A DNA stretch of 40,011 nucleotides from an uncultured Prevotella sp. (GTDB taxonomy: Bacteria; Bacteroidota; Bacteroidia; Bacteroidales; Bacteroidaceae). Shown in pieces: positions 9,360 to 33,438 of this stretch. The notes below the pieces were generated by a model, which saw only the letters and a list, made by a program, of their open reading frames with translations, searched no databases and was not told where the DNA came from. Made by a program: the position numbers and the translations under genes. Position 1 is the stretch's first letter; each line of letters opens with the position of its first letter. The DNA is taken from the NCBI GenBank assembly GCA_944319945.1, contig CALUFN010000021.1, forward strand, positions 1-40,011, written 5' to 3'.

Positions 9360-9469
9360 CGAAGGCTACCTTTTGCGGCGCAAAAGGTAGCCTTTCGTCG
9401 TGTAAAAGGTAGCTTTTCGCAAGACGAAAGGTCACCTTTTACAACGGCATTGATTATCAGCAGGTTACG
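9360..9469 (+). repeat. 22-nt tandem repeat element A (5 units)
   Basis: Five consecutive 22-base units start at 9360, 9382, 9404, 9426 and 9448. Units 1-4 share (A/G)AAGG-NNN-CCTTTT(G/C) followed by about five variable bases; unit 5 is the distinct terminal type with TTGATTATCA and GGTTAC. Units 1 and 2 are near-perfect reverse complements separated by GGC, and units 3 and 4 pair with a few mismatches around CAAGA, so two hairpins can form. It lies 30 bases beyond the 3' end of the minus-strand barrel gene, and so between convergent genes. Confidence 0.75.
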
Positions 9470-9498
9470 CGGCAGCGACAGTTGCTGCCGCCGAAGGC

Positions 9499-10053
9499 TT
9501 AGAAGCCGAAGCCGAGAGTGCCGAACAGGCCGTTGTAAGTGCCTATGCCGGCCGTGCGCGAACTGACGTGGCGGAAGCCCACGCCTATGTTCACCTTGAG
9601 CGCCCCGCCAGTGTTCACCCTGAAGCGCAGGCCCGCGTCGTAGGCCACATGCTTATAGTCGGCGTCGCCCACGGCTGCGGTCACCATGCCGCGCAGGTCT
9701 AAGTCCATAGCCTCAGTGCGCCACAGCGTGTAGCCCAGGCCGCCGCCGAGCACGGCGCTCTTAGTGTAACGCCGGCCGTGATCCTTGTCGTAAAGGCCCA
9801 TCAGGTTGCCCCCGTGCACGAAGGCGTACATCCTCGGTATGAACCTATACCCCAAGTTGGCCCCTAATTCGAGCGGAGCCATGCCGTCGTGCTTGGTCCC
9901 GATGCTTGCGTCAAGCTCCAATACCACGTTGCGCCAGAATGCGGGCACGGCCTTCTGATACGCTACATCGCCAGCCGGCTGCGCCACCGCACGAAGTGGG
10001 ACGATAAACGCTATCACTGAAAGCGTAAACAAAACCAACAATAATTTTTTCAT
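9499..10053 (-). CDS. Small outer-membrane beta-barrel protein of unknown function
   Basis: The 184-residue protein has a signal peptide (about 1-24, ending AVAQ). After it come alternating hydrophobic/polar strands rich in Gly and aromatic residues (LELGANLGYRF, AVLGGGLGYTLW, LKVNIGVGFRHV), ending in a terminal Phe (LGFGF), as expected of an 8-strand outer-membrane barrel (OmpA/OmpW-like size). No ligand or enzymatic motif was recognised. It appears monocistronic, with its own promoter about 75 bases upstream and a repeat element downstream. The barrel class is well supported; the function is not. Confidence 0.75.
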   Translation of the reverse strand: MKKLLLVLFTLSVIAFIVPLRAVAQPAGDVAYQKAVPAFWRNVVLELDASIGTKHDGMAPLELGANLGYRFIPRMYAFVHGGNLMGLYDKDHGRRYTKSAVLGGGLGYTLWRTEAMDLDLRGMVTAAVGDADYKHVAYDAGLRFRVNTGGALKVNIGVGFRHVSSRTAGIGTYNGLFGTLGFGF

Positions 10054-10127
10054 AATCGTATAAATTTAGATGTTAAACAAATATTTTCTTACGTCTCGAT
10101 TCACCCTCGCGGATGAATCTTGTACCG

Positions 10128-10160
10128 CAAAGTTAACAACGGCTTTTGCTTAAATCCAAA
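10128..10160 (-). promoter_or_regulatory. Promoter of the beta-barrel gene
   Basis: On the minus strand a -33 TTTG (10160-10157) is followed, after 21 bases, by TAACTTTG (10135-10128), fitting the Bacteroidetes promoter. The predicted leader is roughly 70 bases. Confidence 0.6.
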
Positions 10161-10297
10161 TTTTCAAAGGATTTTTTCTCTTGGTTGTTACACTGAATAT
10201 TTACGATAATTATCTAATTATCAACACATTACACTACTATGTAACAATCTGTAACACCTAAAACTGTAACAATTTCAGCCGAATGAGAGCTGTTAAT

Positions 10298-10328
10298 TTT
10301 GCCAATTTAGATAATTATATTACTTTTG
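10298..10328 (+). promoter_or_regulatory. Promoter of the TPR/TM sensor gene
   Basis: The -33 TTTG at 10298-10301 and TACTTTTG at 10321-10328 are separated by exactly 19 bases, the preferred Bacteroidetes spacing. The leader to the ATG at 10348 is only about 15 bases. The surrounding 10180-10340 is strongly AT-rich compared with the neighbourhood. Confidence 0.7.
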
Positions 10329-10347
10329 CGAACAAATAATTTAATAT

Positions 10348-11934
10348 ATGAAAGCTATCATAACTTATCTGATCATACTACTGTTTTTTACTGCATGCGA
10401 TATAAGTAAAAACGACATTCAGACGAAATTAGAACATATTGACAGCCTTCTCATAAAAACAAACATAAGTGAAACCGAAAAAGAGATGGGCACAATACGC
10501 TTTGAGGAACTAAAAGATGATGCAGACAAGGCAAAATACTTATTACTAAAAGCACAATTATCACACGTCAAAGGGATACGGCAAAATGAGGATTCGGCAT
10601 TAGACTTTAGCATAAATTACTATAAGAATAATCATGATGCCGAACTTTTAGCACGGTCGTATTACTATAAAGGGGCGATAAGTTATGAAAACGGAAATAC
10701 GAAAAAGGCCTTGTTGCTATTTAAAGAAGCCGAACAAACAGAAAAAGAAGCAGGCGTACCGTGGCTGAGATTCTTAATATATGTCAACATGTCATACGTC
10801 AACTTCTCTCTGGAAGCTAACGAAACGGCCCTTGACTACGCTCATAAGGCATTACAGCATGCGATAAACAACGACAATGTTTCATGGGAATGCTTCGCGT
10901 ACAACAGCATGGCCATGAGCTTTTACGGCATGGGTAAGAAAGACAGCGCATTTAAATACATCAACAAAATAGAGCCGCATTTAAAAGAAATAACCGATAA
11001 AGAGGAATGTACTACCTACATGAACAATATCGGATACATCTATTATGAGAATAGAATGTACGACAAGGCGAGACTTCTTTTCACGCAAGCACTGAGCATA
11101 GAGCCTAATACTGATTTATTGGTAAACTTAATGAAAACCGACTATATGCTTGGAATGCATCGCGAAGCTGACTCCATTAAAAATAAAATTTGGGATCAGT
11201 CTAATGCTGGACAAAAAGCAGAGATACTGCTGTTTCTTGCCGAGAAGGCCGACAGGGAGAAAGACTTCAAGGCATCGGCAAGGTATTATCATGAAGCAAA
11301 AGTGCTTGAAGACAGCATAAAGAAGACGAAAGACACCGAAGGGGCGGTGACCACCCAGCGCGACTACGACAAGGCCCGATACGAGCAAGACGTGAACCGC
11401 AACGCCACGGCGGCCGCAATAGCCACGATAGCCGTGGTGGCGGCACTGGGCTGCTGGGGCGCGGCGTATCACCGCAGGAAGATAAACAAGGCGAAAAAGA
11501 CCATAGCCGACGCCGACAGGCGCATCAGGGAATACGAGGAAAGGATGGCCGCACTCGAGCTGGCAGACCGAAAGCACTCTGACGAGGCCGTAAAGCTGGA
11601 ACGCAAAATCAAGCGGCTGAAAGAGGAACAGAACGCCATAATCAACCGCGGACAGACGCTCTACAACCACATTATAAGCGAAGGCACCACGGCGACGTGG
11701 AAAAAGAAGGACTTCGACAAGTTCATAGAATATTACCGCGTGGGGCATCCCGAGACGGTGGAAGAGGCCGAGCAGGGCTACAATGGGCTCACGTCGACCA
11801 ACATCTTCTACCTGATAATCACCAACGGGATGAAATACGACGACGCGGCCGCACAGCGCATAATGTGCATGACGCAGGGAGCCATGAGGACTATGAAGTC
11901 AAGGATAAAGGCAAAAAAGACCGAGGCGGCGTAA
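10348..11934 (+). CDS. TPR sensor with one membrane helix and C-terminal HTH-like domain
   Basis: The 528-residue protein begins with a hydrophobic segment and a lipobox-like FTAC (Cys17). TPR-like helical pairs (about 40-310) follow, then one transmembrane helix (about 352-372), a charged coiled coil (about 375-435) and a C-terminal region. The last 60 residues (STNIFYLI...MTQGAMRTMKSRIKAKK) resemble the helix-turn-helix end of Bacteroidetes TPR-TM regulators. The likely role is a membrane regulator with a sensory TPR part outside and a DNA-binding part inside; this is inferred from architecture. Oddity: up to about 11330 (residue 328) the gene is AT-rich with A/T-ending codons, and from there on it is GC-rich like its neighbours. 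The change falls just before the membrane helix. It ends 3 bases from the convergent ftsW stop. Confidence 0.75.
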   Translation: MKAIITYLIILLFFTACDISKNDIQTKLEHIDSLLIKTNISETEKEMGTIRFEELKDDADKAKYLLLKAQLSHVKGIRQNEDSALDFSINYYKNNHDAELLARSYYYKGAISYENGNTKKALLLFKEAEQTEKEAGVPWLRFLIYVNMSYVNFSLEANETALDYAHKALQHAINNDNVSWECFAYNSMAMSFYGMGKKDSAFKYINKIEPHLKEITDKEECTTYMNNIGYIYYENRMYDKARLLFTQALSIEPNTDLLVNLMKTDYMLGMHREADSIKNKIWDQSNAGQKAEILLFLAEKADREKDFKASARYYHEAKVLEDSIKKTKDTEGAVTTQRDYDKARYEQDVNRNATAAAIATIAVVAALGCWGAAYHRRKINKAKKTIADADRRIREYEERMAALELADRKHSDEAVKLERKIKRLKEEQNAIINRGQTLYNHIISEGTTATWKKKDFDKFIEYYRVGHPETVEEAEQGYNGLTSTNIFYLIITNGMKYDDAAAQRIMCMTQGAMRTMKSRIKAKKTEAA

Positions 11935-11937
11935 GCC

Positions 11938-13209
11938 TTATGCCGCCTCGGCCTGCACGGGGCCGTCGGCCTCGTCTTTCTTCTTGGCCGAATAGCTCAC
12001 GCTGAGTATCACGCCGATATACGCGCAATTGATGATAGTAGACGTGCCGCCCTTGCTTATCAGCGGCAGTGGCTGACCCGTGACGGGCACGAGGCCCACG
12101 GCCACGGCCATGTTGAACATGGCCTGCACCACCAACAGCATGGCGAAGCCCATGATGAGCAGCGCGGGGAACGTGTTGGCGCAGCGGTTGGCTATAGTGG
12201 CCGTGCGGAACAGCAGCACCACGTAAAGCATGCAGACGAACGCCGCGCCGAAGATGCCCATCTCCTCGACGATGATTGCGTAGATGAAATCAGAGAAAGC
12301 CTGCGACAGGAAGTCGCGCTCCACCGAGTTGCCCGGCCCCCGGCCGATAAGGTTCGACGAGGCGATGGCTATGTTGGCGTGCGAGGTCTGCGAGTCTTTT
12401 CCATTGAGGTCAAGGTCCTCGGGAGCCACGTAGTCGCTGCTGAGGAACTTGTCTATCCTCGACTTCCACGTGTCAAAGCGGTGGAACACCTTCTCAACCA
12501 TGTTCTCGTCTTCCTGCTCCGCCTGCTGCACCATCACCTGCCCGGGCTTCGCCTCGTCGGCCCCGCCGTTGTCATGGCCGAACGCCATGACCGCCGTCAC
12601 CAGCACGGCGATGCTCAAGGCCACCACTCCGAGCAGACGGCCGAGCTGCACTTTGGGCACCTTACCTATGAACATCATCAGGAAAATCACCGTACACAGG
12701 AGCACGGCCGTCGACAGGTTTTCCACCAATATGAGGGGCACTATCAGCACGCACAGCAGCAATATCTCCTTGAAAGCCCGCTTATCGGCTCCCGCCGGGG
12801 TCTGCCTCGCGCTGAGTATCTGCGCCGTGGCGAGCACCATAGTGCCTTTGGCTATCTCAGACGGCTGGAACTGTATGCCGAAAATGTCGAGCCAACGCTG
12901 CGAGCCGTTGGTGGTCTCGCCCACGAAAAACACGATGACAAGCATCAGGACGGAGGCGAACAGGGCCAGCGGAGTGACCAGCTTGAAGTAGCGGCACGGT
13001 ATGTTCATCGTACATATCATCACCACCACGCCCACGGCCAGCAGCAGGCAGTGGTAAAGCACGGGGGCGAGATAGTCGCCGCTCTTGAACGACAAGTGGC
13101 TCGAAGCGCTGAAAACCTCGATTATACTGATGATGCACAGGAAGAAGAACACCGACCAGATGACGGCGTCGCCCTTTATCTTGCCTTCAGAAGTCTTGTC
13201 TTTTAACAT
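11938..13209 (-). CDS. ftsW: FtsW, SEDS-family septal peptidoglycan glycosyltransferase
   Basis: A polytopic membrane protein of 423 residues that polymerises lipid II at the septum together with FtsI. It has the SEDS pattern of about ten membrane helices, with recognisable segments GSQRWLDIFGIQFQPSEIAK, ENLSTAVLL, the large extracellular loop (about 210-285), and VTGQPLPLISKGGTS near the C-terminus. The cluster position argues for FtsW rather than RodA. I start at ATG 13209; a TTG one codon upstream is also in frame. It is the last gene of this part of the dcw cluster: downstream lies the unrelated convergent sensor gene instead of murG. The gap to murD contains an inverted short-word repeat. 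Confidence 0.92.
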   Translation of the reverse strand: MLKDKTSEGKIKGDAVIWSVFFFLCIISIIEVFSASSHLSFKSGDYLAPVLYHCLLLAVGVVVMICTMNIPCRYFKLVTPLALFASVLMLVIVFFVGETTNGSQRWLDIFGIQFQPSEIAKGTMVLATAQILSARQTPAGADKRAFKEILLLCVLIVPLILVENLSTAVLLCTVIFLMMFIGKVPKVQLGRLLGVVALSIAVLVTAVMAFGHDNGGADEAKPGQVMVQQAEQEDENMVEKVFHRFDTWKSRIDKFLSSDYVAPEDLDLNGKDSQTSHANIAIASSNLIGRGPGNSVERDFLSQAFSDFIYAIIVEEMGIFGAAFVCMLYVVLLFRTATIANRCANTFPALLIMGFAMLLVVQAMFNMAVAVGLVPVTGQPLPLISKGGTSTIINCAYIGVILSVSYSAKKKDEADGPVQAEAA

Positions 13210-13213
13210 CAAG

Positions 13214-13352
13214 AGAATTAAGAATTAAGAGTTTAGAATTAAGAAATAACGTATTGGTGATTCATGAGCTAAGAGTTAAGACTTAAGAAATAACGCCGGC
13301 GCATCCAAACCCACAAGGCAGATTTTCTTAACTCTTAATTCTTAACTCTTAA
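13214..13352. repeat. Short-word inverted repeat between murD and ftsW
   Basis: TTAAGAATTAAGAG-type words in the left arm and their complements in the right arm fill most of the 147-base gap. One exact 14-bp pair is 13218-13231 against 13332-13345. The repeat interrupts the dcw operon but has no T-run typical of a terminator. The words match those in the gap at 25330-25486. Confidence 0.65.
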
Positions 13353-13356
13353 CTTT

Positions 13357-14688
13357 CTACAGTCCCCTCACCAACGCCTTAAACTGTTCGCCGCGGTCTT
13401 CCATGTTCTTGAACAGGTCGAAGCTGGCGCAGCAGGGACTCAGGAGAACCGTGTCGCCGGGGCGGGCCATCTTGTAACAGGCCTGCACGCAGTCGCGCAT
13501 GGAGTGGGTGTCGCGCACGGGTATGCCCATTCCGTCGAAGAAGGCGTGCAGCTTCGAGTTGTCGGCTCCTAAGTAGACGAGCCCCGCGCACTTCTCCTTC
13601 ACCAAGTCCTTAATGGCGTTATAGTCGTTACCCTTGTCCTTTCCGCCGAGTATGAGTATAACGGGCGTCTTCATGCTCTCGAGCGCATACCAGCAGGCGT
13701 CTACGTTGGTGGCCTTCGAGTCGTTGACGTACTGCACTCCGCCTACCTTCGCCACCTTCTCAAGACGGTGCTCCACGCCGGGGAAGTCGCTAAGACTCTT
13801 GCGGATGAACTCCTTCCTTATGCCGGCCACGTTAGAGGCGATGCCGGCCGCGAGCGAGTTGTATATGTTGTGCTTGCCGGTCAGGCTCAGCTCCTCTTGC
13901 TCCATGTTGAAGGGCGTGGGCTTCTCTATCTTGTACTGCCCTTCCTCGATGTAGCCTATCGAACCTTTCTCCTTAAGCTCGGAGAAGGGGTAGCGTATGG
14001 CCTTGATGTCATACTTCTTGAGCTCGCGGGCTATGATGGGGTCGTCGTTCCAGTAGATGAACGAGTCCTCGCCGGTCTGGTTTTGCAGTATGCGCATCTT
14101 CGCGTCGACGTAGTTTTGCATGCAGTTGCCGTAGCGGTCAAGGTGGTCAGGGGTGATGTTGAGCAGTATGGCGATGTTGGCGCGGAAGTCGTACATGTTG
14201 TCAAGCTGGAACGAGCTAAGCTCTATGATGTAGTATTCGTGCGGGTCCTCGGCCACCTGCAGTGCGAGGCTGTTGCCTATGTTGCCGGCCAGTCCGGCGT
14301 CGTAGCCGGCGCTCTTGAATATGTGGTAGATGAGCGAAGTGGTCGTAGTCTTGCCGTTGCTGCCCGTGATGCAGATCATCTTAGAGTCGGTGTAGCGTCC
14401 GGCGAACTCTATTTCACTTATTATGTGGATGCCTTCGGCGGCGCACTTGGCCACCATCGGCGCGTCGTTGGGTATGCCGGGGCTTTTTATTATCTCGTCG
14501 GCGTCGAGTATCTTGTCCTCGGTGTGGCGGCCTTCCTCCCACTCGATGCCGTGCGAGTCGAGCACGGCCTTATACTTGTCCTTTATCACCGACATGTCAG
14601 ACACGAACACGTCGAAGCCTTCCTTCTTGGCCAATACGGCCGCTCCGGCTCCGCTTTCTCCTGCTCCAAGTATTACTATTCGTTTCAT
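13357..14688 (-). CDS. murD: UDP-N-acetylmuramoyl-L-alanine--D-glutamate ligase
   Basis: Adds D-Glu to UDP-MurNAc-L-Ala in the cytoplasm, using ATP. The 443-residue length is standard for Mur ligases. The N-terminal domain carries a Rossmann-like glycine motif (VILGAGESGAG), the central domain has the ATP loop ITGSNGKTTTT (near 110-120), then ITPDHLDRYGN, HNIYNSLAA and VNDSKATN in the ligase core, and the C-terminal domain contains LILGGKDKGNDY and LLSPCCASFDLFKN, which is characteristic of MurD. It sits between mraY and ftsW as in other dcw clusters. No unusual residues were noticed. Confidence 0.95.
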   Translation of the reverse strand: MKRIVILGAGESGAGAAVLAKKEGFDVFVSDMSVIKDKYKAVLDSHGIEWEEGRHTEDKILDADEIIKSPGIPNDAPMVAKCAAEGIHIISEIEFAGRYTDSKMICITGSNGKTTTTSLIYHIFKSAGYDAGLAGNIGNSLALQVAEDPHEYYIIELSSFQLDNMYDFRANIAILLNITPDHLDRYGNCMQNYVDAKMRILQNQTGEDSFIYWNDDPIIARELKKYDIKAIRYPFSELKEKGSIGYIEEGQYKIEKPTPFNMEQEELSLTGKHNIYNSLAAGIASNVAGIRKEFIRKSLSDFPGVEHRLEKVAKVGGVQYVNDSKATNVDACWYALESMKTPVILILGGKDKGNDYNAIKDLVKEKCAGLVYLGADNSKLHAFFDGMGIPVRDTHSMRDCVQACYKMARPGDTVLLSPCCASFDLFKNMEDRGEQFKALVRGL

Positions 14689-14691
14689 GTT

Positions 14692-14877
14692 ATTTTAGGT
14701 TATGAGGTCTTACGGTTTTAAGGTTATGGGGTTGGGTGGTTTTCAGGTCATAGGGATTGGGTGTGCGAGGGGGTGGCCTTGTCCGGGTTGTTCCATCATT
14801 ATAACCCTATAACCATATTACCCTATAACCGTAAAAGCCTTACAACCGCATGACCGTAAAACGGTAGGACCGTATTC
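14692..14877. repeat. Short-word inverted repeat between mraY and murD
   Basis: The 189-base gap has iterated GGTTATGGGGTT/GGTCTTACGG words on the left and their complements (ATAACCCTATAACC, ACCGTAAAA) on the right, around a unique GC-rich centre near 14760-14795. The pairing is imperfect but extends over much of both arms. No gene or clear terminator is visible. Confidence 0.6.
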
Positions 14878-16149
14878 TCATCTTATCTTCAATGTTATTA
14901 TCGTAAGCGCCGCAAGGATTATGGTGACAATCCAGAAGCGGATGGTGATCTTCGACTCGTGAACGGCCCCCTTGGGCTTCTTGAAAAGATACTTGATCTC
15001 GGGGTCGAGCTGCTCCTGCTGCGTGCGGAACGTGTCGTGCAGCGGGGCGCGCTTGAACATGCGCTGCTTCACTCCGCGGCGCGTGCCGGCCTTAGCGTAC
15101 CACACTTGCATGATCACGCTGAGGCTCTCTACGAAGAATATGCCGCACAGTATGGGCAGCATCAGCTCCTTGTGGATGATGATTGCGCACACGGCTATTA
15201 TGCCGCCTATGGTCAGTGAGCCGGTGTCGCCCATGAACACCTGCGCCGGATAGGCGTTGTACCAGAGGAAACCGATGAGCGCACCGACGAACGCGCACAT
15301 GAACACCACAAGCTCTTGCGACCCCGGTATGTACATTATGTTGAGGTAGGCGGCGTATTCTATGTGGCTCGACACGTAGGCCAGTATGCCTAAGGCCACG
15401 CCTATTATGGCGGAGTTGCCTGCGCACATGCCGTCCATACCGTCGTTGAGGTTGGCTCCGTTGGATACGGCCGTGACCACGAATATCGTCATCACGACGA
15501 ACAGTATCCAGCCGGCGGCCGTCTTATACTTGCCGCAGAAGCTCATCAGGTTGGCGTAGTCGAGATTGTGCCCCTTGACGAAGGGGATGGTGGTCTTCAG
15601 CGACTTCTGCGCCTCGGGCCTGTGCTTTACGACCAGCTCCTGACCGTCCTGCCGCTCTATGGCGAGGTTTTCGTTGATTTTAGCGTCGGGACTGTACCAC
15701 AGCATCAGGCCCACTATCAGGCCTATGCTTATCTGGCCCACTATCTTGAAGCGTCCGGGCAGTCCCTCCTTGTTGTGGCGGAATATCTTGATATAGTCGT
15801 CGAGGCCGCCGAGGAAGCCGAGCCACACGGTGGTGATGATCATCAGTATGAGGTAGATGTTGCGCATGCGGCCGAGCAGCAGCACGGGCACGAGTATGGC
15901 CACGATGATGATCACGCCGCCCATAGACGGCACTCCGATCTTGTTAACGCCGAAGGGGTCTATCTTGGCGTCACGCTGCGTCTCGGTGATCTGCTTGCTC
16001 TTGAGGTACTTGATGAACTTCTCGCCGAACCATGCCGATATCACCAGCGACAGTATCAGCGCCAGCAGCGACCTGAACGATATGTATCCCCACATGTGGG
16101 AGCCCGGGATGCCGAACTGTTCTAAGAACCGGAATAAGTAGTATAACAT
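14878..16149 (-). CDS. mraY: Phospho-N-acetylmuramoyl-pentapeptide transferase
   Basis: Transfers phospho-MurNAc-pentapeptide from UDP to undecaprenyl phosphate at the inner membrane, making lipid I. The 423-residue polytopic protein shows the MraY/WecA signature residues: the DD motif in GGLDDYIKIFRHNKEGLPGRFK, NLNDGMDGMCAGNSA in a cytoplasmic loop, and FMGDTGSLTIGG. The C-terminal segment ends in a membrane helix. Bacteroidetes MraY proteins are longer than the E. coli enzyme because of an insertion; here residues about 165-205 (KINENLAIERQDGQELVVKHRPE...) form such an extra loop. It follows murE after an unusually large 364-base gap filled with repeats. Confidence 0.95.
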   Translation of the reverse strand: MLYYLFRFLEQFGIPGSHMWGYISFRSLLALILSLVISAWFGEKFIKYLKSKQITETQRDAKIDPFGVNKIGVPSMGGVIIIVAILVPVLLLGRMRNIYLILMIITTVWLGFLGGLDDYIKIFRHNKEGLPGRFKIVGQISIGLIVGLMLWYSPDAKINENLAIERQDGQELVVKHRPEAQKSLKTTIPFVKGHNLDYANLMSFCGKYKTAAGWILFVVMTIFVVTAVSNGANLNDGMDGMCAGNSAIIGVALGILAYVSSHIEYAAYLNIMYIPGSQELVVFMCAFVGALIGFLWYNAYPAQVFMGDTGSLTIGGIIAVCAIIIHKELMLPILCGIFFVESLSVIMQVWYAKAGTRRGVKQRMFKRAPLHDTFRTQQEQLDPEIKYLFKKPKGAVHESKITIRFWIVTIILAALTIITLKIR

Positions 16150-16155
16150 TTTATA

Positions 16156-16215
16156 TTCAGAAGTTAAAGGAGTTAAAGAAGTTATCGCTCGCTCCGCTCG
16201 CTAAGAAGTTAAAGC
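16156..16215. repeat. AGTTAAAG word repeats upstream of mraY
   Basis: Several copies of AAGTTAAAG/GAGTTAAAG are followed by a CGCTCGCTCCGCTCGCT stretch and another AAGTTAAAGCCG. The same words form the arms of the hairpin at 31386-31439. Only one arm is clear here. Confidence 0.45.
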
Positions 16216-16272
16216 CGAATGCCATGCCCCTTGCAGCGTTGTTTACTTTTTAATTTTTAATTGTTAATTTCA

Positions 16273-16382
16273 GATATGCGGCCTTTTGCCTTGCAATCGA
16301 CGACTTTTTGCAGCCTAAAAGGCCGTCTTTTGCAGCCTAAAACGCGGCCTTTTGCAGAGCCGCTGATTATCAAGCGGTTAGC
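16273..16382 (+). repeat. 22-nt tandem repeat element B (5 units)
   Basis: Exact 22-base spacing gives units at 16273, 16295, 16317, 16339 and 16361. The first four end in CTTTTTGC/CCTTTTGC plus variable bases; the fifth is the terminal type (CTGATTATCAAGCGGTTAGC). Units 3 and 4 are reverse complements except at two positions. The element lies inside the murE-mraY gap of the dcw operon. The remaining 131 bases up to the murE stop (16383-16513) show no recognisable feature. Confidence 0.75.
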
Positions 16383-16513
16383 CGCAAGGAAATGTTTATC
16401 GGCCCAATGAGGCTTATCAGCCTGACGAGCCGCGACCTTTACGTTCCAGGCCTCTTCCGTTCAGGAGGGCGAAGGCGGGTGCGGCTTCCTCCCGTCGTGA
16501 GGGTTGTGGCAGG

Positions 16514-22389: not shown

Positions 22390-22499
22390 AAAACGCCATG
22401 TTTCAGGGCCTGATTCGCCGTCTTTTGCAGGCCGAGAGGTTGCTTTTCACAAGCTGAAAGGCTGCTTTTTGCGAGACAAAAAACAGCATATTGCGTTAC
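22390..22499 (+). repeat. 22-nt tandem repeat element C (degenerate, 5 units)
   Basis: Units start at 22390, 22412, 22434, 22456 and 22478. Units 2-4 keep the CTTTT(T)GC or GCTTTTC core and units 3-4 keep GAGAGG/GAAAGG; units 1 and 5 are weaker. A further 22 bases (22500-22521, CATTGAC...) occupy the place of the terminal unit but lack GATTATCA. Pairing between adjacent units is poor, so this looks like a decayed copy. It lies between the divergent mraZ and glsA genes, unlike the other four. Confidence 0.55.
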
Positions 22500-22752
22500 C
22501 ATTGACGACCAATAGCACAAAAAAACGGCAAAACCGCGCGCGCAACAGGCGTTAACATGCCCTGAAGTTTCTATTCCGCGAAATTCTATTGTCAAAGTTT
22601 TTGAATCACGCGGATGCATGTTTATGCAAGCAGATGAATAAATGCGTGCCATTTATACGCATTATATAAAGAGACGGTTGGGATTTTGTTACAAAAATAA
22701 AGTTTTTCAAATATTTTTCGGAAAAACGGACACGATTTCGGAAAACTTGAAT

Positions 22753-25329: not shown

Positions 25330-25486
25330 TTTAATTAAGAGTTAAGAAACAAAGTTCAGCGTTAAGCTAATTAAGAGTTAAGAAAATACTCCGATTAAGA
25401 ATTAAGAGCTAATGACTTAGAATACATATCATGGCGTTTTATTATGCACGCAACGCATATTTTCTTAATTCTTAACTCTTAATTCC
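25330..25486. repeat. Short-word inverted repeat between ung and the DUF3109 gene
   Basis: TTAAGAGTTAAGAA words occur twice in the left arm. The 16-mer at 25333-25348 and again at 25369-25384 is an exact reverse complement of 25469-25484. A unique centre (about 25415-25458) separates the arms. The same word family occurs between murD and ftsW. Confidence 0.65.
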
Positions 25487-25495
25487 CAATTCCCT

Positions 25496-26214: not shown

Positions 26215-26224
26215 AATAAATGCC

Positions 26225-26245: not shown

Positions 26246-26253
26246 ACTGAATT

Positions 26254-26829: not shown

Positions 26830-26876
26830 GCCGCGACGGAGCCTATGAGGGCCTACGCCGCGCGTGGTCACGCCGC

Positions 26877-26986
26877 AAAGGGCGGCCTTCGGCGTCGTGA
26901 AAGGCCGCGTTTCATAAGATAAAAGGTTACCTTTTGCAAGTCAAAAGGTAACTTTTTATCATATCGTTGATTATCAATGAGTTACC
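26877..26986 (+). repeat. 22-nt tandem repeat element D (5 units)
   Basis: Units start at 26877, 26899, 26921, 26943 and 26965. Units 1-4 carry AAAGG...CCTTT-type dyads; unit 5 is the terminal type (GTTGATTATCAATGAGTTAC). Units 3 and 4 are reverse complements with one mismatch around a 5-base loop, and units 1 and 2 pair over GCGGCCTT/AAGGCCGC. It ends two bases before the stop codon of the minus-strand activase gene. The bases 26830-26876 are GC-rich without a recognisable feature. Confidence 0.78.
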
Positions 26987-26988
26987 AG

Positions 26989-29900
26989 TTACTTATCGCT
27001 ACGCTTCAAACTGTCGGTGAAGAGCAGCAGGCGGTTGGTCACGTTAACGTCGCTCACGCCGCTGTCGAAGTCGAGCGAGAGGATGTTCATGTCGGGGAAA
27101 AACGACTTTATCTTCTTCTCCATGCCCTTAGACACTATGTGGTTGGCTATGCAGCCGAAGGGCTGCAGACTTATCACGCTCCTCACTCCCTGGCGTGCGC
27201 ACGACATGATCTCGGCCGGCAGCAGCCAGCCTTCGCCGAACTGGGCGCTCAGGGTGATCACCTTGCGGGCCTCGGCGGCCTCGGCGAAGATGTCGTTGAA
27301 CGGCGTGAAGTAGCGGAAGGGGGAAGCCGCGTTGTTCACGCGGTCGACGCATTTGCGTATGCGCTTGTACATCATGCCGTAGACGAAGCCGGCCAACGAC
27401 CTGCGACAGAGATGCGCCTGCTCGTCGGTGCGCCTGTTGACGAAGCTCTGCATGAAGAAGTCTAAGAGCAACGGTGGCACTATCTCGACGCCCTGGGATA
27501 TGAGCCAGTCGGTCACGTTCTTCTGGGCGAATGGATTAAACTTTAGGAATATCTCGCCCACCACGCACACTTTGGGGCATCGGCGGTCGGTGCAGATGCG
27601 GTCGAACTCGGTGGCGGCCATCGTAAGATAGCTCACAAGGTCGTCGTGGCGGCCTTCGAGTATGAGGCTTTCGCCGGACTGCAGGTAGAGGTCGCGCAGC
27701 CTTGCGGCCTGCCCCGGCTCCTTCTCGCGGACCACCGAGGCGTAATAAAACTTGGCGATGCAGTCGCTGTAAAGTATCGAATGGAGAGCCACGGGCAGCA
27801 TCTTGCGCCAGTTGACGCGGAATCCGGGCTGCCTGTTCCTTATCGTACTGCCGAAGGTGAAGGCAATCACCGGCACTTCGGCATAGCCGGCGTCTACCAG
27901 CGCCTTCTTGATGAGTGCCACGTAGCTGCTCGCGCGGCACTGTCCGCCAGTCTGGGTCATGGCCACTGCCGTCTTAGCGGGGTCGTACTTGCCGCTCTTG
28001 AAGGCCTTCACTATGTCGCCCACGATGAGCGTCGCGGGGTAGCACACCTCGTTGTTGGCGTACTTCAGGCCCCATTCGCACGACTCGGTGTCGCTCAGCG
28101 GCAGGTTGTCTACGTCGTATCCGGCCACTCGCATGACGGCCGGTATGAGCGGAGAGATGAACGGCGTGAAGTAAGGCACGAGTATCTTGCGCCCGCGGCA
28201 GGCCTCGTCGAACGTCCGCGTGGTCTCAAACTCATGAATAGTTTTATCCTTTCCGCCGCCGTCTCCGGCTATCTTCAGGCTTTCGACGAGCGAGCGCACG
28301 CGCAGCTTCATCGAACCTATGTTGTTTATGTCGTCGAGCTTCAGCAGCGTGAGCACCCTGCCCCGGCGCGCCAGCATGTCGCGAACCTCGTCGGTGAGGA
28401 AGGCGTCGGGGCCGCAGCCGAACGACGTCATCTCGACGAACTCCATGCCTTCCTGCCCGGCACTCCACTTCGCCGCCTCCAATATCCGGTTGGGATAAGC
28501 CCATTGCGACAGGTAATGGGCGTCGGCCACAGGCACGTTCTTGCCGCGCACTATGTCGTCGGTCACTACGTAGATGCCCATGTCGGCCATCATGTCAGAC
28601 ACCTTGTGCTGTATCAGCATGTCGGTGTGGTAAGGCCGTCCGGCCAACAGTATGGTCAGCGCGCCTTGCCTGCGGGCCTCGCGATAGACGCTCTCGTCGT
28701 AGTCGGCGACGGCTTTCACGTAAGCGTCTTGCGCGCTTAGGGCGAGTCTGAAGGCGCCGGCCACGGTCTTTCCGTCTATCCCGAGCCGCCCGAGATACTC
28801 GCGACACTGCTTCAGGAGCAGGTCCTTGTCCTTGAAACTTATCGTTGGAGAGTCGATCGGAACGCCTCCGGCCTGCACGCTCTTCACCACTTCGGCGTAT
28901 CCGGTCACTATCGGACAGTTGTAGCTGTTTTGCTCCTTGCCCTGCCGTTCGTAAACTACGAAGGGCATGAACACGCGGTCAACGCCGCCGTCTACCAGCT
29001 CTTGCACGTGGCTGTGCACCAACTTGGCAGGGAAGCAGATGTTGTCTGACATCACCATGCAGGCGTTCTGCTCGTAAGCGGCGAACTTAGAGGGCGACGA
29101 AAGGCGCACGCCGATGCCGCAGGCGGTGAACAGCGCGTGCCAGAAGGGATAGTCCTCGTACATGTTAAGGCAGCGCGGTATGCCCACGGTGAGGCGCGGC
29201 GTGCCTTCAAGCGGCGGCCGGTCGAAGAGCAGCGAAGACTTACGCTCATAGGCGTTGACGCCCTTCGATGGGCGGTCGGAACCGCCGTTGCTGAACACAC
29301 GCTCGCATCTGTTGCCCGAGAAGTACTCCTGCCCGTTGCCGAAACGGTAGCGGACTACGAGGCAACTGTTGTCGCAGCCTTTGCAACGGAGCTGCTTCTG
29401 CGTGTAGCCGGCCTTCGCGAGCATGTCGCCGAGAGCCAAGCCGCCGCCCTGGTGGCGGCCGGCGTAAAGGGCGCAGCCGTATGCTCCCATCAGTTCGGGA
29501 GCGTTGCTGCGGGTCACTTCGGCACCCGTCAGCAGCTCGAGGGCGCGCACCACGGCGTCGTTTCTCATCGTGCCGCCCTGCACTACCACGTGTCCGCCGA
29601 GCTGCGAGGCGTCCCTCAGCTTAAGCACTTTATACAAACAGTTCTTCACCACCGAGTAAGCCAGGCCTGCGGCGATGTCGCCAACGGAGGCTCCTTCGCG
29701 CAACGCCTGCTTCACTTTCGAGTTCATGAACACCGTGCAGCGCGTGCCGAGGTCGCAAGGGGCGGCCGCGCGGCACGCGGCTTCGGCGAACTCGTGGGGC
29801 GTGTAGCCGAGAGTCTTGGCGAAGGTCTCGATGAACGAGCCGCAGCCCGACGAGCAGGCCTCGTTGATCTCGATGCAGTCTATCACGCCGCCGGTCACGA

Positions 29901-31242
29901 ATATGGCCTTCATGTCTTGCCCGCCGATGTCTAAGATGAAGGTGACGTCGGGGTCAAGGTGGCGCGCAGCCGTGTAGTGGGCTATGGTCTCGACGATGCC
30001 CGAGTCAAGCCTGAAGGCCGCCTTGATAAGGTCTTCGCCGTAGCCCGTAGAGCAGCTGCCTACCACGCGGAGGCTTACGCCGCGCCCGTCGCACTGCCGT
30101 TTCAGCTCGGCGAGGCCTTTCTCAACGGTTCCTATCGGGTCGCCGTTGTTGGGGTTGTAATATGAATAAAGTATGTTAAGGTCCTTGTCGGTGACGACTA
30201 TCTTGGTAGTGGTCGAGCCGGAATCTATTCCAAGAAACACGTCTTTTGTCAGTTGACCGGCAGACAAGCGACCGGCAGACACGGCCTCGTCGGTATTTTC
30301 GTCCGTTTGTCCGCTTGCCCCTTGTCCGCCCGAAATGCGTTCGCGCCACCGGGTGTATTCGTCTTCGTCGGCGAATATTGGCCGGAGAGCCGTGCCGCTG
30401 CGGTCGGCGGAAGCACGGCCGGCGGTCATTTCGGCAATTACTTCAGACAACTTGCGCGGCTTTTCGCCGTCCACTTCGGCAAGGGCGGCACCGAGCGCGG
30501 GCAGCAGAGTGCCGTCGGAGGGCAGTATGATGTCGGCGTCGGATAGCGAAAGATAGTCCTTGAAGGCCTTGCGCAGCGACGGCAGGAACGTCAGCGGACC
30601 GCCGCACATCAGCACGGGCGGCTCTATCCGACAGCCGTGGGCCAGCGTCACTACGGTCTGCACGGCCACGGCGTGGAGTATGGAGGCGGCGATATCGGCG
30701 CGGCTTACGTTCTTGGCGATAAGATTCTGTATGTCGGTCTTGCAGAATACGCCGCAACGCGAGGCTATGGGATACACCTGCGAGGCGCTCGCGGCGAGGC
30801 CGTCAAGCCGGTCGACGCCCACGTTGAGCAGCACGGCCATCTGATCGATGAAGGCTCCCGTGCCGCCGGCGCAGTTGCCGTTCATGCGCAAGTCGGCAGC
30901 GCGGCCGTCACGGAAGAACACCACCTTAGCGTCTTCTCCGCCGATGTCGATCAGCGAGCGCGTGGCCGGATAGTATCCCTGCACGGCTTTGGCGGCGGCC
31001 ACCACCTCCTGCACGAAGGGCAGGCCGCAACTCTCGGCGAAGCCCATGCCCACCGATCCGGTCATCCTTACGCCGGTCTCTACGTCGCCGATGCAGGCCG
31101 AAAGCCTGCCCAATATGCCGGCCGCCACGGCCTTAGCGTCGGCGTTGTGCCGCTCGTAGCGCGAGAACAAGACGCTTCCGTCGTCGCCTACGGCTACTAC
31201 CTTAGCCGTCGTAGAACCTATGTCGATACCTATCCTGATCAT
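26989..31242 (-). CDS. Giant acyl-CoA dehydratase activase-like protein (two ASKHA domains plus DUF2229/HgdB-like region)
   Basis: About 1,417 residues. The first ASKHA ATPase domain (IGIDIGSTTAKVVAVG at 3-18; DIGGEDAKVVFF; NGNCAGGTGAFID) is followed by an Ala/Gly-rich linker near 300-330. A second ASKHA domain follows (GIDSGSTTTKIVVTDKD; DIGGQDMKAIFV; NEACSSGCGSFIE, whose Cys residues fit the [4Fe-4S] ligands of HgdC/BadF-type activases). After it come a Cys-rich KGCDNSCLVVRYRF segment, a DUF2229-type region (VGIPRCLNMYEDYPFWHALF...DNICFPAKLVHSHV) and a C-terminal HgdB-like part. Activases inject an electron into 2-hydroxyacyl-CoA dehydratases by ATP hydrolysis. No dehydratase gene is nearby and the substrate is unknown. 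I start at ATG 31242 (MIRIGIDIG); a TTG two codons upstream is in frame. Confidence 0.88.
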   Translation of the reverse strand: MIRIGIDIGSTTAKVVAVGDDGSVLFSRYERHNADAKAVAAGILGRLSACIGDVETGVRMTGSVGMGFAESCGLPFVQEVVAAAKAVQGYYPATRSLIDIGGEDAKVVFFRDGRAADLRMNGNCAGGTGAFIDQMAVLLNVGVDRLDGLAASASQVYPIASRCGVFCKTDIQNLIAKNVSRADIAASILHAVAVQTVVTLAHGCRIEPPVLMCGGPLTFLPSLRKAFKDYLSLSDADIILPSDGTLLPALGAALAEVDGEKPRKLSEVIAEMTAGRASADRSGTALRPIFADEDEYTRWRERISGGQGASGQTDENTDEAVSAGRLSAGQLTKDVFLGIDSGSTTTKIVVTDKDLNILYSYYNPNNGDPIGTVEKGLAELKRQCDGRGVSLRVVGSCSTGYGEDLIKAAFRLDSGIVETIAHYTAARHLDPDVTFILDIGGQDMKAIFVTGGVIDCIEINEACSSGCGSFIETFAKTLGYTPHEFAEAACRAAAPCDLGTRCTVFMNSKVKQALREGASVGDIAAGLAYSVVKNCLYKVLKLRDASQLGGHVVVQGGTMRNDAVVRALELLTGAEVTRSNAPELMGAYGCALYAGRHQGGGLALGDMLAKAGYTQKQLRCKGCDNSCLVVRYRFGNGQEYFSGNRCERVFSNGGSDRPSKGVNAYERKSSLLFDRPPLEGTPRLTVGIPRCLNMYEDYPFWHALFTACGIGVRLSSPSKFAAYEQNACMVMSDNICFPAKLVHSHVQELVDGGVDRVFMPFVVYERQGKEQNSYNCPIVTGYAEVVKSVQAGGVPIDSPTISFKDKDLLLKQCREYLGRLGIDGKTVAGAFRLALSAQDAYVKAVADYDESVYREARRQGALTILLAGRPYHTDMLIQHKVSDMMADMGIYVVTDDIVRGKNVPVADAHYLSQWAYPNRILEAAKWSAGQEGMEFVEMTSFGCGPDAFLTDEVRDMLARRGRVLTLLKLDDINNIGSMKLRVRSLVESLKIAGDGGGKDKTIHEFETTRTFDEACRGRKILVPYFTPFISPLIPAVMRVAGYDVDNLPLSDTESCEWGLKYANNEVCYPATLIVGDIVKAFKSGKYDPAKTAVAMTQTGGQCRASSYVALIKKALVDAGYAEVPVIAFTFGSTIRNRQPGFRVNWRKMLPVALHSILYSDCIAKFYYASVVREKEPGQAARLRDLYLQSGESLILEGRHDDLVSYLTMAATEFDRICTDRRCPKVCVVGEIFLKFNPFAQKNVTDWLISQGVEIVPPLLLDFFMQSFVNRRTDEQAHLCRRSLAGFVYGMMYKRIRKCVDRVNNAASPFRYFTPFNDIFAEAAEARKVITLSAQFGEGWLLPAEIMSCARQGVRSVISLQPFGCIANHIVSKGMEKKIKSFFPDMNILSLDFDSGVSDVNVTNRLLLFTDSLKRSDK

Positions 31243-31274
31243 TAACAATACAACTGAATCACGTTTTACCGCTG

Positions 31275-31282
31275 CAAAGTTA
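31275..31282 (-). promoter_or_regulatory. Likely -7 element for the activase gene
   Basis: The minus strand reads TAACTTTG, matching TAnnTTTG, about 33 bases before the ATG at 31242. A consensus -33 TTTG was not seen at the usual distance. Confidence 0.5.
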
Positions 31283-31385
31283 CTAATTTACATTGTTACA
31301 ATATTATTTTTTAAAAATTAAAAATGTTCAAAAATCCACATTCATGTAGAATGACAGAGAAGTTGAAGGCGTTAAATAAATTAGA

Positions 31386-31439
31386 GAAGTTAAAGCCGAT
31401 AGCATTGCGTGATTCGGGCAATGCCTCGGCTTTAACTTC
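31386..31439 (-). repeat. Long hairpin built of GAAGTTAAAGCCG words downstream of gpmI
   Basis: 31386-31399 (GAAGTTAAAGCCGA) is an exact reverse complement of 31426-31439, and inside it GCATTGC pairs with GCAATGC, giving an interrupted stem of about 21 bp with an 8-9 base loop. It lies 100 bases past the gpmI stop and upstream of the activase promoter. It may act as a terminator or transcript 3' stabiliser for gpmI, although the following bases are only moderately T-rich. The rest of the 291-base gap shows a second loose inverted word (CCACATTCATGTAGAATGACA near 31336, GAATGTCAGCAAAGCCCACATTC near 31453). Confidence 0.55.
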
Positions 31440-31539
31440 CCTAAACTGCGTATGAATGTCAGCAAAGCCCACATTCATTACATTAATAATGTATGGCGGC
31501 TGTGGTCTCCCAGACCTCCCAAACCTCACAGCCCTCACA

Positions 31540-33063
31540 TCAAATATTATCCTCTATGAGGTTTTCGCCCGTCATGTCGGCAGGCTGCTCGAGGCCCATG
31601 ATGTGGAGTATCGACGGAGCCACGTCGGCCAGACGGCCGTTCTTCACCGTGGCGCTGTTGTTGTCGGTCACGTAGATGAAGGGCACGGGGTTGAGCGAGT
31701 GGGCCGTGTTAGGCGTGCCGTCGGCGTTGATCGCGTTGTCGGCGTTGCCGTGGTCGGCGATGATGATGGCCTCGTAGCCGTTGGCCTTAGCGGCCTCTAT
31801 CACGTCTTTCACGCAGTGGTCTACGGCCCACACGGCCTTAGCTATGGCGTGGTAGACGCCGGTGTGGCCCACCATGTCGCCGTTGGCGAAGTTCACCACG
31901 ATGAAGTCATACTCCTGCGTGTTGATGGCTCCCACCAGCTTGTCCTTCACCTCGTAAGCGCTCATCTCCGGCTTAAGGTCGTAAGTGGCCACTTTGGGCG
32001 ACGGCACGAGTATGCGGTCCTCGTTGTCGAAGGGAGCCTCACGGCCACCGTTGAAGAAGAACGTCACGTGTGCGTACTTCTCCGTCTCGGCCGTGTGCAG
32101 CTGCTTCTTGCCCTGCTTGCTCAGGTATTCGCCGAGAGTGTCTTGCACATTCTCTTTCGGGAACAGCACGTGCACGCCCTTGAACGACGCGTCGTAAGGC
32201 GTCATGCAGTAATACTGCAGGTCCTTTATTGTGTGCATACCCTCCTCGGGCATGTCCTGCTGGGTGAGCACCTGCGTAAGCTCCTTAGCGCGGTCGTTGC
32301 GGAAGTTGATGAATATCACCACGTCGCCCTCGCCTATGGTGCCGTCTACCGTAGAGTTGTTGATCGGCTTAACGAACTCGTCGGTCACGCCCTCGGCGTA
32401 GCTCTCCTCCATGGCGCGCACCATGTCGTCAGCCTGCTTGCCCTTGCCCTCCACGAGCAGATCGTAAGCCTCCTTCACGCGGTTCCAACGCTTGTCGCGG
32501 TCCATGGCGTAGAATCGGCCTACGATGCTGGCCACGTGGGCGCCGTTCTCGCGGCACACGTCCTCAAGGCTGCGTATGAAGCCCGCGCCGCTCTTCGGGT
32601 CGGTGTCGCGGCCGTCCATGAAGCAGTGCACGTAGACGTCCTTAAGGCCGTACTCCTTGCCTATCTCCACTAATTTAAAGAGGTGGTCGAGCGAAGAGTG
32701 CACTCCTCCGTCGCTGGTCAGGCCCATCAGGTGGAGCTTCTTGCCAGTCTTTTGGGCGTAGCCGTAGGCGTTGACTATTTCGGGATTCTTCAATATCGAG
32801 CCGTCCTTGCAGGCGCGGTTGATCTTCACGAGGTCTTGATACACTATGCGGCCTGCGCCGATGTTGAGGTGTCCCACCTCCGAGTTGCCCATCTGTCCGT
32901 CGGGCAGACCTACGTCTTCGCCCGAGGCCTGCAGCTGCGAGTGCGGGCTTACCGCGTTAAGATAATCAAGATAAGGAGTAGGCGTGTTGTAGATTACGTC
33001 GCCTTCGCCGTGTTTTCCGATACCCCATCCGTCGAGTATCATCAATAATGCTTTCTTTGCCAT
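31540..33063 (-). CDS. gpmI: 2,3-bisphosphoglycerate-independent phosphoglycerate mutase
   Basis: Interconverts 3- and 2-phosphoglycerate in glycolysis and gluconeogenesis with a two-metal (Mn2+) centre. The 507-residue protein belongs to the alkaline-phosphatase superfamily. It has the N-terminal metal site [10 protein letters not shown] (Asp11), the phosphoserine nucleophile Ser61 in [17 protein letters not shown], the substrate-binding stretch [14 protein letters not shown], and the C-terminal metal ligands in [16 protein letters not shown] and [12 protein letters not shown]. Length and motifs are complete. It appears monocistronic, with a strong promoter at 33091-33121 set in a duplicated repeat. 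Confidence 0.96.
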
Positions 33064-33090
33064 AATCTTTTAAATATAAAAAACCTGATG

Positions 33091-33121
33091 CAAAGTTAGT
33101 GCAAGTCGAGCGAAATGCAAA
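33091..33121 (-). promoter_or_regulatory. gpmI promoter inside a repeated element
   Basis: On the minus strand the -33 TTTG (33121-33118) and TAACTTTG (33098-33091) are separated by exactly 19 bases, a perfect Bacteroidetes promoter. The leader to ATG 33063 is about 20 bases. The spacer contains TTCGCTCGACTTGCAC, which is repeated in the upstream copy. Confidence 0.75.
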
Positions 33122-33258
33122 ATAAATGTGCGTGAAACGCACATTTATTTTCATTTCCGAGACGCAGCCTGACTTATGTAAAGTTAGTGCAAGTCGAGCG
33201 AATTGAAAATCGCCGTCAGGCAAATGCAAAATAAATGCGAGAGAAACGAGCATTTATT
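33092..33258 (-). repeat. Tandemly duplicated promoter-bearing repeat upstream of gpmI
   Basis: A 23-bp block at 33092-33114 is repeated exactly at 33181-33203, and a 16-bp block at 33113-33128 is repeated exactly at 33223-33238. In the distal copy about 21 extra bases separate the blocks and the -7 box is changed to TAACTTTA, so the proximal copy should be the active promoter. Each copy ends in a hairpin: the proximal one is a perfect 15-bp stem, 33119-33133 with 33137-33151, and the distal one is a 10-bp stem around 33229-33258. Confidence 0.7.
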
Positions 33259-33350
33259 TAAAGGTAAAAAGGTAAAGAAATCTCTACACATTGGTTGGGA
33301 TTTTCATAAAAGGCGAAGGAGGCAAGACAAGCATTTTACGTTGCCTATAC

Positions 33351-33438
33351 AAAAGGTTACCTTTCGGCGTGCGAAAGGTAACCTTTTACGGCATGAAAGG
33401 CCGCCTTTTGCGGCGCAAAAGGCGGCCTTTCGGAATTG
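33351..33438 (+). repeat. 22-nt tandem repeat element E (4 units)
   Basis: Units start at 33351, 33373, 33395 and 33417. It is the best-preserved copy. Units 1 and 2 form a perfect 16-bp stem with a 5-base loop (core GGTTACC against GGTAACC). Units 3 and 4 form a perfect 17-bp stem with a 3-base loop (core GGCCGCC against GGCGGCC). The GATTATCA terminal unit is missing; a rho-independent terminator of the neighbouring lipoprotein gene occupies the next bases. Confidence 0.8.

Follow-up and report, generated by a model that had tools for sequence, protein, structure and literature searches.

What are the five short intergenic repeats that recur along this piece of an uncultured Prevotella genome, and what are their 22-nt units for? 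A preliminary description of the window (the whole stretch of 40,011 nucleotides analysed here) had taken them for one dispersed intergenic family whose 22-nt period is constrained, and this was borne out: all five elements lie where they had been placed and show the 22-nt phasing. The 24 units then counted become 20, some of them degenerate, at four per element. Of the 'four or five units' allowed for each copy, four held; the fifth is mostly a separate 22-nt tail (YTGATTATCARNNNGTTAC), as at 9448, 16361 and 26965. The parts are as follows.

9360..9447, + strand: element 1, four 22-nt units (R1 score 106.3 bits), with hairpin 1 at 9360-9396, a spacer, and hairpin 2 at 9404-9440
9448..9469, + strand: tail of element 1, with an exact WATCARNNNNTTR inside (TATCAGCAGGTTA); tail score 15
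16273..16360, + strand: element 2, four units, hairpins degenerate
16361..16382, + strand: tail of element 2, with an exact WATCARNNNNTTR inside; tail score 14
22390..22411, + strand: extra degenerate unit ahead of element 3
22412..22499, + strand: element 3, four degenerate units (R1 90.5 bits)
22500..22521, + strand: weak tail of element 3 (score 9, opposite side 8)
26877..26964, + strand: element 4, four units forming two hairpins (R1 102.3 bits)
26965..26986, + strand: tail of element 4, with an exact WATCARNNNNTTR inside; tail score 16
33351..33438, no strand assigned: element 5, four units forming two near-perfect hairpins (R1 105.2 bits on +, 89.3 on -)

The five copies had also been said to point the same way, on the plus strand. 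Tails back this in three of them (scores 15, 14 and 16), support for element 3 is weak, and element 5 has no detectable tail (scores of 7 and 7 on its two sides). Outside the window, copies in this genome (G000) occur in both orientations, 46 minus and 34 plus.

Folded as the + strand, elements 1-5 give z-scores of -9.05, -2.66, -0.95, -8.06 and -8.06, and element 3 taken alone is no different from its own shuffles; the signal is beyond chance for the family, not for each copy. A core-independent finder returned four matches in the window at a threshold of 40 and five at 38, and none in one first-order random resampling of it. We read 17 of 66 stretches, 16 of which carried a call at threshold 38.

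Paired units and covariation

The 22-nt units are hairpin halves. Units 1 and 2 are complementary, as are units 3 and 4, giving two 37-nt hairpins that are usually followed by the 22-nt tail. The whole element, about 110 bp long, thus consists of two tandem palindromes, each with a stem of 15-17 bp, set at a 22-bp phase and tailed in most copies. The preliminary description had the period right; it overlooked the complementary pairing, the IHF-like tail and the fact that many of the differences between copies are compensatory.

Successive units are 22 nt apart in 185 of 190 distances measured over 68 copies, the remainder being three of 44, one of 14 and one of 16. Unit statistics used 66 of 69 copies, with L006:176 (three units) and L033 and L059 (mis-registered) dropped. 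The centres of units 1 and 2 are perfectly complementary in 34 of the 66 (shuffle mean 9.0, maximum 19) and those of units 3 and 4 in 35 (mean 8.2, maximum 17), while complementarity in the pairs 1-3, 1-4, 2-3 and 2-4 is at chance level in the same copies. In a 48-row alignment (A4, with 20 of 68 copies left out, ten because the tail score was <10 and ten because the tail or the register was offset), 148 cells had changed on both sides of a pair, against 74.6 in shuffles, over 37 pairs including three in the tail. In 39 distinct copies from several lineages there were 233 against 93.2, and none of 500 shuffles reached the observed value in either set. Covariation is therefore strong and confined to the paired units. 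Palindromes can, it should be said, also come to covary by templated mutation without selection.

No consistent covariation was found for an outer stem joining the head to the sequence after unit 4 (10 positions, five sets). Isolated z-scores of up to about 2.6 occurred among the many tests made of it.

The hairpin design is not universal, as units 3 and 4 are non-complementary in the core in G017 and G131, which keep four position-specific units, and the units of Leyella are uniform.

The tail

The tail YTGATTATCARNNNGTTAC matches, by sequence only, what we take to be the IHF consensus. On the tail side, 57 of 85 copies in G000 and 40 of 61 in G058 have WATCARNNNNTTR with no more than one mismatch, against 2.8 and 1.1 in shuffled tails; the head-side control (3/85 and 0/61) is biased low because orientation was picked by tail score. 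In most copies the IHF-type site lies 94-95 bp from the element start, and a minor class in G000 (seven matches) has it at 106 bp, or 11 bp further out. The DNABII family (PF00216), to which a docking protein might belong, is represented in the genome by six matches, of which four are nearly full length.

We considered the tail as a free-standing acceptor site and rejected this: a scan of 400 kb of G058 gave 23 tail matches at no more than two mismatches, every one of them adjoining an element, and no solo tail. The window has one solo tail, at two mismatches.

Distribution, lineage cores and site occupancy

A genome-wide search found further copies, and their spacing is as non-random as given above. 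The copy number is a lower bound, with 150 scored matches (of 879 candidates) at at least 118 distinct places. Of the copies set against the calls of a simple gene finder, none lies inside a gene (0 of 62 in G058, 0 of 68 in G000).

The '(A/G)AAGG...CCTTTT' form first ascribed to the units holds for the window and its lineage; other Prevotella lineages share the frame and have a different 7-nt core, with a similarity of 0.89 within lineages and 0.54 between them. The core begins GG in G000 and G125 and CG in G058, G136, G180 and mostly G242, and is GCATAGC in G039 and CCTACGC or CAGCCGC in G017 and G131. The spread of the family is lineage-restricted, with the core uniform within each lineage and the tail common across lineages. 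Among 200 Prevotella genomes, 24 have at least 10 matches and 142 have none; Xylanibacter rarus and Marseilla massiliensis are examples of cultured carriers.

Element 2 sits between two cell-wall genes on the same strand, a Mur-ligase gene and a glycosyltransferase-4 gene, which are probably murE- and mraY-like. The same gap holds an element in G053, G065, G004 and G058; element 2 would be the model case for cassette exchange, with one gap occupied in five species and G058 bearing its own CG core there. At site 3, G053, G065 and G004 each carry an element or a remnant (48.8, 26.0 and 21.2 bits). At site 4, none was detected in G053 and G004, and G065 has a remnant. At site 5, the element of G065 and G058 reads on the other strand, element 5 itself having no orienting tail. 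This variation in occupancy among relatives at sites 3 to 5 indicates real turnover of elements.

Of 23 flanks matched between G000 and G058, 12 have an element in G058, compared with 8.2% of random windows; of gene ends next to a gap of at least 110 bp, 28% have an element, and against that rate 12 of 23 gives a P of 0.012. Matching by unique neighbourhood gave 10 of 21 (P 0.044). Only two loci are syntenic on both sides, and each of them has an element. We regard the positional conservation between the two genomes as suggestive.

Cassettes in unrelated flanks

Four pairs of near-identical hairpin cassettes lie in unrelated flanks, which suggests movement or cassette exchange. In three of the four, identity runs from -4/-6 to +86/+90, spanning the hairpins only, and in the fourth from +5 to +108. 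Shorter matches in G058 cover unit 4 and the tail (nine, of 45-54 nt) or run from the head into unit 1 (two), so that hairpins and tail appear to be inherited together as well. By eye, the flanks of the near-identical pairs contained no target-site duplication, and no clean empty site was found.

We left out of the four the pairs (L004, L052 and L065) that have in common the end of a putative insertion sequence, and a 59-nt match between L051 and element 5. Across 71 genomes, a 76-base end of this insertion sequence occurred in this one alone, apart from a single 24-base match, and viral contigs gave no match to the 25-bp end. In G125, one near-identical pair (L311) lies on either side of an insertion of about 6.6 kb that is missing there in G000, G004, G053 and G065, and for that reason we did not take the pair to show transposition. 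Another pair in G125 (L313) also has a common flank and looks like a longer duplication.

A link to the RAYT transposase (PF01797, RAYT/Y1) was considered and dropped, as PF01797 in 119 genomes showed no association by eye. It was not found in six of the 10 copy-rich genomes (at least 23 R2 matches each): G000, G012, G017 and G039 have no match, and the list of 78 genomes with one includes neither G058 nor G060. It was found in the other four and in many genomes without elements. Completeness is 91% for G000, 81% for G039 and 80% for G058.

What kind of element?

We give about an even chance to the reading that this is a REP/BIME-like non-autonomous intergenic DNA element with a putative dock for IHF/HU. 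A putative trans-acting factor would recognise the cassette, probably in single-stranded or extruded-hairpin form, and would either copy it to new places or swap it into resident elements. A protein of the IHF/HU family may bend the DNA at the tail; with phasing so strict, the units and the tail would all face the same side of the helix. A role for the host is putative and would be secondary: the elements might organise the nucleoid or supercoils, or offer a landing site to recombination or insertion sequences.

More tentatively, the element may be one of two parts, a conserved frame with an IHF/HU dock that remains where it is and a hairpin cassette that is exchanged, whole lineages switching jointly to a new 7-nt core (GGnnnCC, CGnnnCG, GCATAGC, CCTACGC and others) by way of a putative sequence-specific enzyme that co-evolves with it. 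If true, Bacteroidota would have a mobile system of a new class, based on cassette exchange.

It is unlikely that the elements are instead operator arrays bound by a DNA-binding (nucleoid) protein specific to the lineage, with a dimer site in each 15-bp unit, 22 bp amounting to about two helical turns and hairpin complementarity being a by-product of palindromic sites. Such arrays would account for a 22-bp phase that is nearly invariant across loop and spacer alike, for the minor tail class displaced by 11 bp, for cores that are uniform lineage-wide, and for the four position-specific units of G017 and G131, which lack hairpin 2 complementarity. Yet free sites need no matched centres, and only units 1-2 and 3-4 covary; in addition, near-identical cassettes in unrelated flanks imply copying.

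Rather less likely still is that the elements act as RNA hairpins, as bidirectional intrinsic terminators or 3'-UTR stabilisers. Folds are very stable in three of the five window copies, A and T runs flank the hairpins, and a terminator-like match overlaps two of the four elements scanned (element 5 being outside the scanned stretch). Copies in G058 lie closer to the 3' ends of genes, at a median of 154 bp, than to the 5' ends, at 322 bp, and 17 of those in codirectional gaps run along the genes and seven against them, a hint of transcript orientation; the figures for G000 are 14 along and 18 opposed. Moreover, the accessible text of PMC8040213 labels 230 of 250 palindromic candidates as terminators. 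However, the T runs are mostly only four long, and the gap between same-strand cell-wall genes that holds element 2, and a counterpart in each of four relatives, would be an odd position for a strong terminator. Among G058 gaps of 110 bp or more, elements occupy 19 of 40 divergent, 14 of 33 convergent and 29 of 101 codirectional ones (raw counts). Divergent gaps, which have no 3' ends, are not depleted, and we therefore rejected a 3'-end terminator.

Strand bias in wobble pairs bears on the same question. When copies are oriented by model score, GU outnumbers AC by 173 to 126, favouring RNA on one strand; when they are oriented by tail, the counts are 161 and 156 (by context, GU/AC 39/32 for ++ and 49/50 for --). 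We trusted the tail orientation above the model score, which is a choice, and because wobble pairs then show no strand bias, DNA structure is favoured over RNA structure. Selection at the RNA level was dropped on this ground, with the model-score bias standing as counter-evidence.

The least probable reading is that of a neutral relic, in which old repeats that no longer move or serve any function have had their palindromes maintained by templated quasi-palindrome mutation: it suits the degenerate copies (elements 2 and 3), the lineage-restricted spread and the equal GU and AC mismatches of tail-oriented copies, but leaves unexplained the 22-bp phase across spacers, the cross-lineage tail and the core that is uniform within lineages.

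Comparison with known systems

Few components of bacterial genomes are as common, or as little understood, as small palindromic repeats, the best studied of which depend on RAYTs. The preliminary description knew of no named family with this design, and Rfam covariance models gave no match in the window above the gathering score; nor did the literature searched, outside which fell most subscription papers, figures and supplements, yield an earlier description of the paired hairpins. The claim that the copies are not CRISPR-like also stood, with units that vary within and between copies, about four per copy, and at least 118 scattered copies. A MITE fits poorly (no covarying outer stem, no target-site duplication by eye), as do CRISPR and terminator readings. 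The Correia/NEMIS elements of Neisseria, compared by description only, are likewise short and intergenic with an IHF site, and differ in having terminal inverted repeats.

The nearest published Prevotella repeat that we found is PINSR, compared here by description only. It is high-copy (177 copies in one strain and 184 in another, which share about three quarters of their sites; PMC4755523), intergenic, clade-restricted and, in its accessible description, without terminal inverted repeats. That our family is a form of it is improbable: PINSR, from the P. intermedia/nigrescens group, is 188 bp long vs about 110 bp, and that description mentions neither 22-nt units nor paired hairpins (PMC4755523). 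An overlap is possible with the palindromic candidate RNAs of human microbiomes, which in the accessible text include Bacteroidetes and Prevotella-only ones, are found on both strands and measure about 80-132 bp in named examples; unlike our elements, they are called RNAs or terminators, and this comparison too is by description only (PMC8040213).

Like REP/REPIN-RAYT systems, whose REPs serve as insertion-sequence targets (PMC1525189), the family consists of many short intergenic palindromes in inverted pairs with lineage-specific sequence. Unlike them, it has a fixed 22-bp phase, two tandem hairpins and an IHF-like tail, PF01797 was not found in this genome or in five other copy-rich ones, and by eye the element consensus has no GTAG/CGTC tag.

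The E. coli BIMEs of RIB/RIP type, reportedly palindromes with an IHF site as described by Boccard and Prentki in 1993, also combine two palindromes with such a site (here a consensus match only) between genes. The Prevotella elements differ in having the tail outside the hairpin pair, a lineage-variable core, another phylum as home and a placement that is not limited to 3' ends. What they add is a high-copy family of unusually rigid design, with an IHF-type site and a core that differs by lineage in a constant frame, which provides markers of genome plasticity for Prevotella and makes testable what copies and homogenises such repeats without RAYT.

Element structure and abundance

The five elements numbered along the window lie where the preliminary description had placed them and have the 22-nt phasing it reported. 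Its ‘fifth unit’, on the other hand, had to be given up for three of the five, which end in a different 22-nt tail. When the elements were folded and paired, units 1 and 2 tended to be reverse complements of each other, as did units 3 and 4, so that the 88 nt form two 37-nt hairpins with 7 nt between them. Element 5 is a pair of near-perfect hairpins. Both element 2 and element 3 are degenerate; taken singly, the latter folds no better than its own shuffles.

The further dispersed copies, and the fixed spacing outside the window, that the preliminary description implied were both found in the window's own genome (G000; 2.58 Mb, 88 contigs, 91% complete). A covariance model built on the five window copies (R1) gave at least 150 scored matches (150 of 879 candidates were scored) at no fewer than 118 distinct places; the palindromic element is often matched on both strands, and it is places that we count. 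Across 68 copies, 185 of 190 successive unit distances were 22.

For unit statistics, 66 of the 69 copies first read were kept. At their three central bases, units 1 and 2 were perfectly complementary in 34 of these 66 (shuffle mean 9.0) and units 3 and 4 in 35 (shuffle mean 8.2), proportions that the selection of copies and their layout in a 22-nt frame favour more than they do double-sided changes. The remaining four unit combinations stood at chance level in the 66 copies, and pairing was lost when the register was slid by one base. Double-sided changes filled 148 cells versus 74.6 shuffled in 48 oriented copies (three tail pairs included), and 233 versus 93.2 in 39 distinct copies from several lineages; none of 500 shuffles attained either value. 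In tail-oriented copies, would-be GU mismatches numbered 161 on the plus strand versus 156 on the minus strand, a balance little affected by gene context. We read the palindrome as a feature of the DNA, with the reservation that an earlier count, with copies oriented by model score, gave 173 versus 126 mismatches for plus- and minus-strand GU.

An IHF-like tail

The IHF consensus is WATCARNNNNTTR, and the tail, YTGATTATCARNNNGTTAC, fits it. With at most one mismatch, this consensus is matched by the tails of 57 of 85 G000 copies (shuffled tails, 2.8) and 40 of 61 copies in the related genome G058 (shuffled tails, 1.1). A tail score of at least 10 on one side was reached by 58 of 68 copies versus 40 of 1162 random windows. 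The tail match lies nearly always 94 or 95 bp from the element start, and seven G000 tail matches lie at 106 bp, one helical turn further out. G000 has six DNABII (HU/IHF-family) matches. We infer the tail to be a putative IHF/HU-family binding site.

Lineage-specific cores in a constant design

A further model, R2, found matches in 24 of 119 relatives (G000 included), ten of which had at least 23 matches each (best 31 per genome scored). In the copies read from other lineages the four units are kept, often with the tail, and the 7-nt core differs by lineage. This lineage-specific core within a constant design was the main surprise. G058 has CG..CG cores, with 62 copies in 400 kb (61 at a finder threshold of 38, and none in one random resampling), and such cores recur in G136, G180 and, mostly, G242. 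The core is GCATAGC in G039, and CCTACGC, CAGCCGC and CAATAGG in G017 and G131. Best-match core similarity was 0.89 within lineages and 0.54 between them (3 to 83 copies per genome); for the A/T frame it was 0.87 and 0.84, partly by construction, as the finder favours the frame.

Within the genus, the general model R3 matched 58 of 200 genomes. In a sample of 151 from the family, four genomes belonging to other genera had a single weak copy each, and none of 148 other genomes sampled from the order was matched; R2 gave one match, a weak one, in G101, a genome of another family. A strict three-unit pattern found 66 stretches in 84,980 species genomes, from which the records closest to G000 are possibly absent, and 64 of them are labelled Prevotella or relatives. 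These include cultured Leyella stercorea, Xylanibacter caecicola, Xylanibacter rarus, Marseilla massiliensis, Palleniella intestinalis and Prevotella histicola. Three L. stercorea stretches (L130, L143, L167) carry a simpler form that lacks the usual tail, in which the unit AAAAGGACTCCTTTT is repeated four or five times with little variation. Unit arrays also occur in a MAG labelled Bacillota (L165, L175); given the flank that L165 has in common with a Palleniella locus (L180), it may be wrongly binned Prevotellaceae DNA.

Possible movement or exchange, and site conservation

In four usable pairs, copies that are nearly identical (94.6 to 97.9% over at least 90 nt) stand in unrelated surroundings. 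In three, identity spans only the hairpins (-4..86, -4..90 and -6..86), and the tails differ or sit elsewhere than usual; in the fourth it covers hairpins and tail (5..108). The hairpin-only identity suggests that the hairpins can move, or be swapped, as a cassette separate from the tail. Against such a rule, nine shorter G058 matches cover unit 4 plus tail, and two cover the head and the start of unit 1. Every one of the 23 tail matches found in 400 kb of G058 adjoins an element, which makes exchange among resident elements one simple reading. No target duplication and no exact empty site were found.

One position is occupied in several relatives:

Site 2 (element 2 of the window): flanked by genes for a Mur ligase and a glycosyltransferase-4; element in G000, G053, G065, G004 and G058

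Here G058 has an element with its own CG core, and G044, G016, G012, G017 and G060 have a shorter gap and no element. Support for conserved positions beyond site 2 is modest, and at sites 3 to 5 relatives have remnants, losses or a copy in the opposite reading direction. In G125, two near-identical elements (L311, 8285 and 14834) flank a segment of about 6.6 kb that is absent from the corresponding place in G000, G004, G053 and G065; elements may thus serve as recombination sites.

Genomic context

None of 62 copies in G058 and none of 68 in G000 fell inside a gene predicted by a basic codon-usage finder made for this analysis. Among G058 gaps of at least 110 bp, elements occupy 19 of 40 where the flanking genes diverge, 14 of 33 where they converge and 29 of 101 where they are codirectional (raw counts, uncorrected for gap length), which argues against a pure terminator role. 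In codirectional gaps, elements run with versus against the genes 17 to 7 in G058 and 14 to 18 in G000. At contig ends of G000 (L232, L234-L244) lies a multi-copy sequence bounded by 25-bp ends; it is probably an insertion sequence that the assembly left incomplete. Eight of 12 ends of this putative insertion sequence adjoin element units, six next to at least one whole unit and two next to a half unit only.

Other dispersed repeats were seen in the window and in G125. One (window 33089-33209, about 115 bp; partly tandem in G065, in steps of about 88 bp) and another adjoining element 2 (16156-16222, about 67 bp) have many matches in G053, G065 and G004. At 5088-5200, 13214-13354 and 25332-25485 of the window, 7-nt units such as TTAAGAG/AGAATTA form arrays. 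A long palindrome of similar letters (G125 L311, 10281-10372) is matched, in many cases on both strands, in G000, G004, G053 and G065; these four genomes also have matches to a further dispersed palindromic repeat, based on GCAGACAAG/CTTGTCTGC (L311, 12902-13044).

Comparison with known repeat families

The elements are a real, dispersed, structured DNA family with lineage-specific cores. Their repeats are not CRISPR-like, as the preliminary description had noted; a classical MITE was likewise rejected, and Rfam had no match in the window. The nearest published Prevotella repeat found, PINSR (PMC4755523), and the palindromic RNA candidates of PMC8040213 were compared by their published descriptions. 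The family behaves as REP/BIME, yet dependence on a RAYT was rejected as far as PF01797 shows; it appears to be a new form of the REP/BIME kind. According to PMC1525189, REPs serve as targets of insertion sequences, a parallel to the putative insertion-sequence ends beside element units here.
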